NCBI GenBank assembly: GCA_025356275.1
Contig: JANXUK010000132.1
Span: 33,733-97,732 of the forward strand
Direction: 5' to 3'
DNA from: Sphingomonadales bacterium
Lineage (GTDB): Bacteria; Pseudomonadota; Alphaproteobacteria; Sphingomonadales; Sphingomonadaceae
Length of the DNA stretch: 64,000 nucleotides
The notes under the pieces were generated by a model. That model was not told the DNA's origin. It saw nothing but the letters and a program-made list of their open reading frames with translations, and made no database searches. The position numbers and the translations under genes are program-made. Shown here piece by piece: positions 54,595 through 56,843 of this stretch; position 1 is the stretch's first letter; every line of letters starts with the position of its first letter.

Positions 54595-55239
54595 TCAGAA
54601 CACGCTCTCAGGGATGATGATGACGTCGCCGGGCATCAACATGACGTTGGCCTGGCTATCGCCTTTCTTGAACAGGTCGCCCAAACGCAGTGCGAATTCG
54701 CGCTGTTTGCCGCTGGCCTTGTCATAGCGGACGAGCTTGGCGCGGTTGCCCGAGGCGAACTCGTTCATCCCGCCGACCGCGATCATCGCATCGAGCAAGG
54801 TCATGTTGGCGCGATAGGGGATCGACGAGGGCTTGCCGGTCGCGCCGACAATCCGGACCTGCTGGCTGAACGTGCCGGCAAAGCGGTTGACGATGATCGA
54901 GACCAACGGGTCCTGCACATATTGCGACAATTGCAGCTGGATATCCTGTGCCAGCATCGACGGGGTCTTGCCCACCGCCGGCATGTCGGTGATCAGCGGC
55001 GTGGTGACGCGGCCGTCGGGGCGGACCTGAACGCGCGCGCCCAGCTCCGGGTTGCGCCACACAAAGATGGTCAGCTCGTCAAGCGGTCCGATGACGTAAT
55101 CTTCGCCCGGCCCTTCCTGCATCGCGACGAAATTGGCGGGGGGCAGGTGTTGGCCACCTGAGCTGCCGGCGCATCCGCCCAGCGTCAGGCTGACCAAAGC
55201 GCTTCCCGCAAGCAGACGTACCCAATTTTTGCTCGGCAT
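54595..55239 (-). CDS. Wza-like polysaccharide export lipoprotein, XrtA-associated (TIGR03027-like)
   Basis: Lipobox LTLGGCAG, DYVIGPLDELTIFVWRNPELGARVQVRPDGRVTTPLI, SLBB-like region, MPGDVIIIPES. Confidence 0.93.
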   Translation of the reverse strand: MPSKNWVRLLAGSALVSLTLGGCAGSSGGQHLPPANFVAMQEGPGEDYVIGPLDELTIFVWRNPELGARVQVRPDGRVTTPLITDMPAVGKTPSMLAQDIQLQLSQYVQDPLVSIIVNRFAGTFSQQVRIVGATGKPSSIPYRANMTLLDAMIAVGGMNEFASGNRAKLVRYDKASGKQREFALRLGDLFKKGDSQANVMLMPGDVIIIPESVF

Positions 55240-55426
55240 GGTGTTGTTCCTCGACGACGCCGCTTGCCAAATCAGGACACAATTCCCGAACCGGTACACG
55301 GCTGATCACCACCTGCTATCGAGCAAAAGGGTAAACATACCGTTAGCCATTGGCGGGGAAGTGGGGGGCGAAAGCGCATATTTCGGCGGTTCGTCGCTTG
55401 GCAGCGCCAAAATCGAGAAAATTTAC

Positions 55427-55597
55427 GTCTGTTTGCTGAAAAGCGCGAAAGGGCGCTTTTCGCAGAAGCCTGTGCCATCCCGCGCCCCCCTCCCGACCTC
55501 CCACAGCGTATATCCTGAATGGGAAGTCGGGAGGGCGCGCGGGATGAAACAGGCTTCCTTCGCAAAAGCGCAATTTCGCGCTTTTCGCCAAACAAAC
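55427..55597. repeat. Long imperfect inverted repeat in the XrtA locus
   Basis: Arms of about 75 bp: GTcTGTTTGctGAAAAGCGCGAAAggGCGCTTTT..GAAGCCTGTgcCATCCCGCGCcCCCCTCCCGACcTCCC versus the reverse complement of 55520-55597. Confidence 0.88.
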
Positions 55598-55601
55598 CGC
55601 G

Positions 55602-56843
55602 TTAAATCAGCATCTCCGCCGCCGGCCCATGGCCTAGAAACGCCGCCGGGCTGGCGCTGGCGCCATAGGCTCCGGCGCAGAATACCGCGACCAGATCGCC
55701 CGCTTCTGCATGCGGAAAGCCGCCTCGCTCGGCCAACCGGTCCAGCGGCGTGCACAGGCAGCCGGCAATATTGGCTTCCTCCACCGCCTCGGCACCATAA
55801 TGCGTCGCGATCGCGACGGGGTAATTGCGCCGCATCACGCTGCCGAAATTGCCGGTCGCCGCCAGCTGATGGTGCAGGCCGCCGTCGGTGATCAGGAACA
55901 CCGCGCCATGGCTGATCTTGCGCTCGATAATCCGGGTCAGATATATGCCCGCCTCGCCTACCAGATAGCGGCCCAGCTCTACGCAAAAGCGCGTATCGGC
56001 ACATTCGGCGGAGAGCGCGTCCAACGCCTCGCCCAGCGCCGCGCCAATGCGCGCAATATCCAGCGGTTCATCGCCCGCGAAATAGGGAATGCCAAAGCCG
56101 CCGCCCAGATTGCAATGCGGCAAAGCCACCCCCGCCTCGCCTGCCAGGCTCACCGCCAGCGCGACGCTCTGCGCCTGCGCCGCGATGATCGCTTGCGTAT
56201 CGAGCGACTGGCTGCCGGCATAGATGTGAAAGCCCCGCCACTCCGCCCCCGCTGCGACGATCCGCCGCGCCAGCGACGGCACGCGCTCGGCATCGAGGCC
56301 GAACGGCTTGGCCCCGCCGCCCATCTTCATGCCCGAGCCCTTGAGGTCGAAACCGGGGTTTACGCGTATGGCGAGGCGCGGCACGATGCCCAGAGCATCC
56401 CCGATGGCCAGCGCGCGGGCGACCTCGGCCTCGGATTCGCAGTTAAGCGTGATGCCGGCGGTGATCGCGGCGCTCAGCTCACGGTCGCGCTTGCCTGGCC
56501 CGGCAAAGCTGATCCTTGTGGGTGCCATGCCCGCAGCCTGCGCCATCGCCAGTTCGCCCGCCGAGGCAATGTCGAACCCATCGACCAACTCGGCCATCGC
56601 GGCCAATAGCGGCGCAAAGGGGTTGGCCTTGATCGCATAATGCACTGCCAGCCGCGCCGGCATCGCGGCCCGCAACTCCGCCACCCGCGCGCGCAGCATC
56701 CCGCCGCTATAGACGAACAGCGGGGTATCGCCGGCGCGCTCGACCAGATCGGTGGCCTTATGCCCGGCGATCATCAGCACGCCATTTGCCGCGCCAAAGC
56801 CCTTCGGGATCGGCCCCAATTTCTTGCCCGCAGCCAGCGTCAC
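55602..56843 (-). CDS. PLP-dependent decarboxylase, exosortase A-associated (TIGR03099-like)
   Basis: VHYAIKANPFAPLLAAM PLP Lys, GFHIYAGSQSLD, NLGGGFGIPYF, GRYLVGEAGIYLTRI, CTPLDRLAE; GTG start coupled (GTGA) to the ligase stop. Confidence 0.9.
   Translation of the reverse strand: MTLAAGKKLGPIPKGFGAANGVLMIAGHKATDLVERAGDTPLFVYSGGMLRARVAELRAAMPARLAVHYAIKANPFAPLLAAMAELVDGFDIASAGELAMAQAAGMAPTRISFAGPGKRDRELSAAITAGITLNCESEAEVARALAIGDALGIVPRLAIRVNPGFDLKGSGMKMGGGAKPFGLDAERVPSLARRIVAAGAEWRGFHIYAGSQSLDTQAIIAAQAQSVALAVSLAGEAGVALPHCNLGGGFGIPYFAGDEPLDIARIGAALGEALDALSAECADTRFCVELGRYLVGEAGIYLTRIIERKISHGAVFLITDGGLHHQLAATGNFGSVMRRNYPVAIATHYGAEAVEEANIAGCLCTPLDRLAERGGFPHAEAGDLVAVFCAGAYGASASPAAFLGHGPAAEMLI

Follow-up and report, generated by a model that had tools for sequence, protein, structure and literature searches.

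The long inverted repeat between two genes of the XrtA locus is probably (we put the chance at about three in four) a copy of an undescribed, high-copy, non-autonomous palindromic MITE-like family of the Sphingomonadales, probably mobilised by IS5-type transposases. The repeat lies at 55427-55597 of the window, the whole 64,000-nucleotide stretch of Sphingomonadales DNA that was analysed. Copy number, terminal inverted repeats, a filled/empty site with a TAA duplication, six copies flanked by identical TNA triplets, and IS5 elements with the same ends in relatives all favor the MITE, which the sequence-only reading had named last among several possible roles. The element at the XrtA locus is ordinary; the family and its placement at stop codons are the interesting part.

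The inverted repeat in the window

A repeat search of the window resolved the region into three nested blocks spanning 55427-55597, with a 16-nt centre between 55503 and 55520 separating the arms; self-alignment gave 80.7% over 176 columns. Folded as RNA, the repeat reached -116 kcal/mol compared with -58.4 ± 4.2 kcal/mol in shuffled sequences (z = -13.6), and none of 200 shuffles equalled it, showing that the inverted repeat first described from the letters alone is real. The arms had been said to face each other across about 15 nt, which agrees with the measured centre, and each to contain its own small palindrome, which was found at 55438-55461 and 55562-55588. The distance to the decarboxylase stop had been given as 5 nt and was measured as 4 nt, from the repeat end at 55597 to the stop at 55602-55604. 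Profile scores supported the naming of both flanking genes, a TIGR03099 decarboxylase and a TIGR03027 export protein starting at 55239. The features are as follows (strand given where one applies).

54595-55239, minus strand: neighboring host gene, XrtA/PEP-CTERM exopolysaccharide export protein (TIGR03027; 219.6 bits, cut-off 180)
55423-55425: putative left target-site duplication TTA, identical to 55602-55604 and in keeping with the TNA duplications of relatives
55426-55435: left end CGTCTGTTTG, a degenerate GAGTCTGTTTG, from comparison with the ends of other copies and of IS5 elements
55438-55461: left mini-hairpin GAAAAGCGC-GAAAGG-GCGCTTTTC, from the repeat search; several unrelated hairpins occupy this place in other copies
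55468-55554: core palindrome GCCTGTGCCATCCCGCGC...GGGATGAAACAGGC, from the in-register alignment of 38 own-genome copies and cross-species covariation
55504-55519: asymmetric central loop of the CAGCGTATATCCTGAA type, whose TATCCTG motif was found again in other species
55562-55588: right mini-hairpin GCAAAAGCGC-AATTTC-GCGCTTTTCGC, from the repeat search and copy comparison
55589-55601: right end CAAACAAACCGCG, a degenerate CAAACAGACTC, from comparison with the ends of other copies
55602-55604, minus strand: TTA that is both the TAA stop of the decarboxylase (580 open codons upstream) and the putative right copy of the target-site duplication
55602-56822, minus strand: neighboring host gene, exosortase-A-associated pyridoxal-dependent decarboxylase (TIGR03099; 574.5 bits, cut-off 478)

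A dispersed family with a common plan

The window's own genome (3.18 Mb in 143 contigs) contains roughly a hundred copies, the window hairpin among them. Repeats in both orientations were found at about 40 places among the first 40 of 142 candidates scored, and at least 44 near-complete palindromic copies were catalogued. With at most three mismatches allowed, a 22-nt pattern of the half-site matched 95 times forward and 93 times in reverse (188 in total), while the reversed-pattern control matched 0 and 0 times. The search for other genomic copies, suggested by the sequence-only reading as a check, therefore uncovered a dispersed high-copy repeat.

A complete element measured about 153-176 bp and carried no transposase gene. 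Its parts ran from a terminal repeat GAGYCTGTTTG through a small hairpin, the 86-bp core palindrome and a second small hairpin to the other terminal repeat, and its ends were close to GAGTCTGTTTG...CAAACAGACTC. The terminal inverted repeats GAGYCTGTTTG...CAAACAGRCTC expected of a MITE were present in relatives and in many own-genome copies. Mean column identity across 38 aligned own-genome cores was 82%; most cores were 86 nt long, compared with 87 nt in the window copy, to which the core model matched with an E value of 3.8e-15 (G000:C52:89198-89288). Outward from the core on either side came a short joint (TTCC or similar), a small hairpin and then CAAACAGACTC or a variant of it. The mini-hairpins of the own-genome copies were interchangeable, being of the type AAAAGCGC..GCGCTTTT, ATCGCCGCAAGGCGAT, GCGACC..GGTCGC or CCGCCGGCAGGCGG, or missing altogether. 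The whole 171 nt of the window copy looks like a single palindrome because the first of these types stands on both sides. Beyond the end of many own-genome copies lay a second unit made of another half-site and another hairpin.

Several further features of the copies were observed. The innermost core loop of the own-genome copies occurred in two orientations relative to the rest of the core (CGTATATCC and GGATACACA types), as if flipped. A canonical G-quadruplex motif was present in 98 of 112 cores, on both strands in 83 of them (in the window copy, for example, at 55479-55545), and G runs were among the most invariant core columns. At L018 11860-11950 and L035 near 2330-2455 a different dispersed repeat, GAGCATCGTGCCAAAAAGTGGGTACCGG...CAAAGACTCTAGAGCAAGATGCGATT, which also carries a CAAAGACTC end, abutted two copies. 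A copy lay no more than about 200 bases from many contig ends of the draft assembly (C14, C15, C18, C57, C58, C88, C115, C118 and C121); one and the same copy terminated both C57 and C58, and the flank of C29 was mirrored. Short-read assemblies seem to break at the palindromes.

Mosaic half-unit arrays beside many own-genome copies, paired palindromes and high copy number would also be seen if the family were of the REP/REPIN (BIME-like) kind and owed its movement to a REP-associated tyrosine transposase. We consider such an origin very improbable: the REP-associated transposase (NF047646) had no match in the own genome and matched in only 32 of the 196 congeners compared with 156 for the element, and the TNA duplications in relatives described below are unlike REPINs, which leave no duplication. 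Five own-genome Y1 transposase matches proved to be IS200-type fragments, and the presence of the REP-associated transposase did not track the repeat, so that this origin was rejected. A broken, frame-shifted IS200/IS605-type transposase gene (L031 1958-2384) lay about 50 bases from one copy, adjacent by position only; other fragments of this type ended contigs C24, C78 and C83.

Distribution and arm covariation in relatives

A DNA search found diverged relatives of the element in congeners, with the same plan and different arm sequences and mini-hairpins. The core covariance model (E ≤ 1e-6) matched in 156 of 196 congeneric species, and in an order-wide sample it matched in 43 of 151 genomes and 17 of 56 genera. 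The sequences that were read had more in common than a long hairpin, namely the core GGCACCGGCCCGCTCCCCCACCCGACCTCCCA-loop-complement or close variants of it. The arms co-varied, with 13 pairs changed on both sides and 124 double-changed cells compared with 46.5 in shuffles; in the combined alignment of own-genome copies and relatives, 95.8% of cells were paired, against 44-51% when the partner strand was slid. Named carriers were Hephaestia caeni and plasmids of Novosphingobium resinovorum, Sphingomonas sanguinis and Sphingopyxis sp. FD7. These three sphingomonad plasmids matched a congener's variant; no plasmid match was observed with the variant of the own species, and no phage match was found. 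Exact 18-mer matches in other taxa (61 loci) were attributed to chance, the partner palindrome arm being at the right place in none. In Rfam no family scored above its gathering threshold, and there were only sub-threshold hairpin matches.

Insertion footprint

The element was absent between the decarboxylase and the export gene in eight syntenic relatives (L181, L183, L191, L192, L198, L200, L203 and L207). A dedicated transcript barrier at the XrtA locus, which the sequence-only reading had offered as one role, finds no support in this result or in the presence of the element beside many other genes. Its position between the two genes would suit a locus-specific regulatory element of the XrtA operon, but the dispersal of copies elsewhere and their absence here in syntenic relatives make such an element hardly credible; it is refuted as an ancestral feature, and what is left to it is co-option within this lineage. 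Upstream of the export gene, a block TATCG..AAAAGGGTGAATATTGCGTTAGCC (window 55318-55353) was conserved in L183, L192, L198, L200, L203 and L207. Since this block, judged by eye, lies beyond the element, the export gene has probably retained a promoter of its own. Near the block most relatives had a GTCCC-N4/5-GGGAC palindrome, possibly an operator; neither the window nor L181 had this palindrome.

The sister species G005 and G133, which are about 99% identical over the compared stretches, differed at three of the positions tested. The first gave one clean filled/empty pair: the filled site G005:C1:2775269 read CTC-TAA-GAGGCCGTTTG...CAAACGGCCTC-TAA-GGC, and the empty site of G133 read CTC-TAA-GGC, with a single TAA and otherwise matching flanks. 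At the second, 65 bp inside the core were retained by G133 and missing from G005; at the third, the G005 sequence was too divergent to read. A 65-bp core deletion that distinguishes one sister species from the other (L240 3170-3400 compared with L241) is what replication slippage in a long hairpin would be expected to leave.

When both ends of a copy could be recognised, identical flanking triplets were present in 6 of 16 relative copies and all were TNA; shuffling gave a mean of 0.7, and 6 was reached in none of 5000 shuffles. The own-genome copies with recognisable ends had no TNA duplication (0 of 13). Target-site duplications, another of the checks proposed at the outset, were thus found in relatives, at one filled/empty site and in six copies, and not in the own-genome set. 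In the window copy a TTA stands at either side (55423-55425 and 55602-55604). Because its ends are degenerate, this pair is only suggestive of a target-site duplication.

IS5-family elements as the likely mover

Two autonomous elements of 905 bp in G133 had the ends GAGTCTGTTTGGAAAATC or GAGACTGTTTGGAAAATC, were flanked by TTA or TAA duplications and encoded a 274-aa IS5-family transposase (NF033580, 239.9 bits; PF13340 and PF01609). Similar ends with TCA and TTA duplications were observed in G023 and elsewhere in G133, and one palindromic copy had an end, TCA-GAGCCTGTTTGGAAAAT, that closely matched that of the IS. An autonomous partner with the same ends, as looked for with a MITE, therefore exists in relatives, namely the IS5 elements of the congener G133. 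The similarity between IS and palindrome was limited to the ends, and the core was not a remnant of any IS seen. Going by these common ends, IS5-family DDE transposases that act on such ends and duplicate a 3-bp TNA target would most likely have mobilised the copies in trans. Among the DUF4096 and DDE_Tnp_1 matches of the own genome there was no IS5 element with matching ends. Given this result and the lack of TNA duplications in the own-genome copies as a set, the family may be an old one in this genome, or the partner that moved it there may since have been lost.

The sequence-only reading held that multiple genomic copies with transposon ends would make the repeat a known MITE. Such copies were largely found, but a published family was not: in the open-access literature we found no description of a sphingomonad palindromic repeat or MITE or of the core sequence, which is weak evidence of absence.

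Placement at stop codons and transcript ends

Seven relative copies with a duplication were examined, and in 6 of these 7 the triplet terminated an open frame of 90 codons or longer, typically of 300 codons or above; the background among comparable TNA triplets was 22% (P about 7e-4). The window copy was left out of this statistic because it was the starting case. It has the same pattern, its right TTA being the decarboxylase stop, and the TAA stop of this XrtA-associated gene seems to be where it inserted in this lineage. The stop-to-core distance in relatives peaked at 30-44 nt, which is one arm length. TAA and TGA are stops as they stand, and TTA and TCA are stops when read on the other strand. 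Since every TNA triplet can be a stop, insertion at a gene's own stop restores that codon and places the element just 3' of the gene. In the own genome, 13 of 48 stops neighboring copies were TAG, not TNA. The placement of the palindromes at stop codons may reflect either targeting or selection.

An effect of the window copy on transcript ends is plausible from its predicted fold. The transcript of the copy would form a very stable hairpin that would probably act as a passive 3'-end or RNase barrier and not as a locus-specific switch. Placed straight after the stop, such a hairpin can be expected to shield the decarboxylase transcript at its 3' end or to set that end, and RNase III could cut the hairpin. 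A search for intrinsic terminators (a GC-rich stem followed by a T run) gave 0 at 55200-55700, where shuffles gave a mean of 0.8.

Copies could also have been retained as a host-domesticated 3'-end cassette, if their hairpins at stop codons served to terminate or shield the transcripts arriving from either side, whether as a bidirectional terminator, as a barrier to RNases or as an RNase III site. None of the catalogued own-genome copies lay inside a predicted gene, and the median core distance was 49 nt to neighboring 3' ends and 175 nt to 5' ends. Convergent gene pairs flanked 10 of 38 copies compared with 8 of 91 in the background, both from a rough home-made gene caller that missed the decarboxylase itself, so that the orientation counts are rough. 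Copies abutted stop codons in relatives, the autonomous IS5 copies with the same ends were at stops in none of 4 cases, and A-tract/T-tract flanks accompanied many mini-hairpins, all of which would suit a cassette. However, purifying selection against genic insertions explains much of this pattern without any function, a canonical intrinsic terminator was missing at the window copy, and the copy at the XrtA locus was not conserved among relatives. We regard domestication as possible, if rather unlikely. A wider scheme can be drawn, in which palindromes spread across the order at TNA stops that they restore and were co-opted as portable 3'-end modules, the core being kept by arm-to-arm correction or hairpin selection and the mini-hairpins being freely exchanged; in this full form it is doubtful.

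If the reading as a MITE-like family holds, an apparently unnamed repeat family in many sphingomonad genomes sets the 3' boundary of many genes and breaks draft assemblies. It would also show a harmless strategy of insertion at work in nature, the target triplet being itself a stop codon. Copies should be counted before striking hairpins are given locus-specific roles.

Comparison with known systems

The closest autonomous elements belong to the IS5 family (candidate IS427/IS1031-like groups), since those of the congeners have the same GAGTCTGTTTGGAAAATC ends and a 3-bp TNA duplication; the palindromic element differs in having no transposase gene and nothing recognisable in common beyond the ends. 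A three-nucleotide insertion site was described for an IS5 element with IS1031-like features (PMC2516522), and in Paracoccus a 2-bp duplication is usual for IS427 elements (PMC3281130).

Bacterial MITEs are reviewed in PMC10969869, among them QMITE2 of Coxiella, which lies mainly in 3' untranslated regions. Our family resembles bacterial MITEs in being short and non-autonomous, with terminal inverted repeats, duplications in younger copies, an intergenic or 3' location and strong stem-loops. It is unlike them in its GC-rich, near-wholly palindromic core retained across an order, its concerted arms, its copy-specific hairpins and its insertion at TNA stops. High-copy extragenic palindromes in mosaic arrangements are also typical of REP, BIME and REPIN sequences; here the own genome is without the transposase RAYT, the arms are far longer and relatives have TNA duplications. 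CIR repeats, the CcrM-associated intergenic repeats, are alphaproteobacterial intergenic inverted repeats, and by description our elements are similar to them, with GANTC enriched about 5-fold in the arms. They differ in that GANTC derives here from GAGTC/GACTC ends and occurs in about a quarter of arms only. The CIR repeats of Caulobacter are named in PMC10969869, as are SPRITE, RUP and BOX of pneumococcus, interspersed repeats that are clustered and nested and some of which are terminator-like. Compared by description, and across unrelated taxa, the sphingomonad elements are likewise interspersed, clustered and nested.
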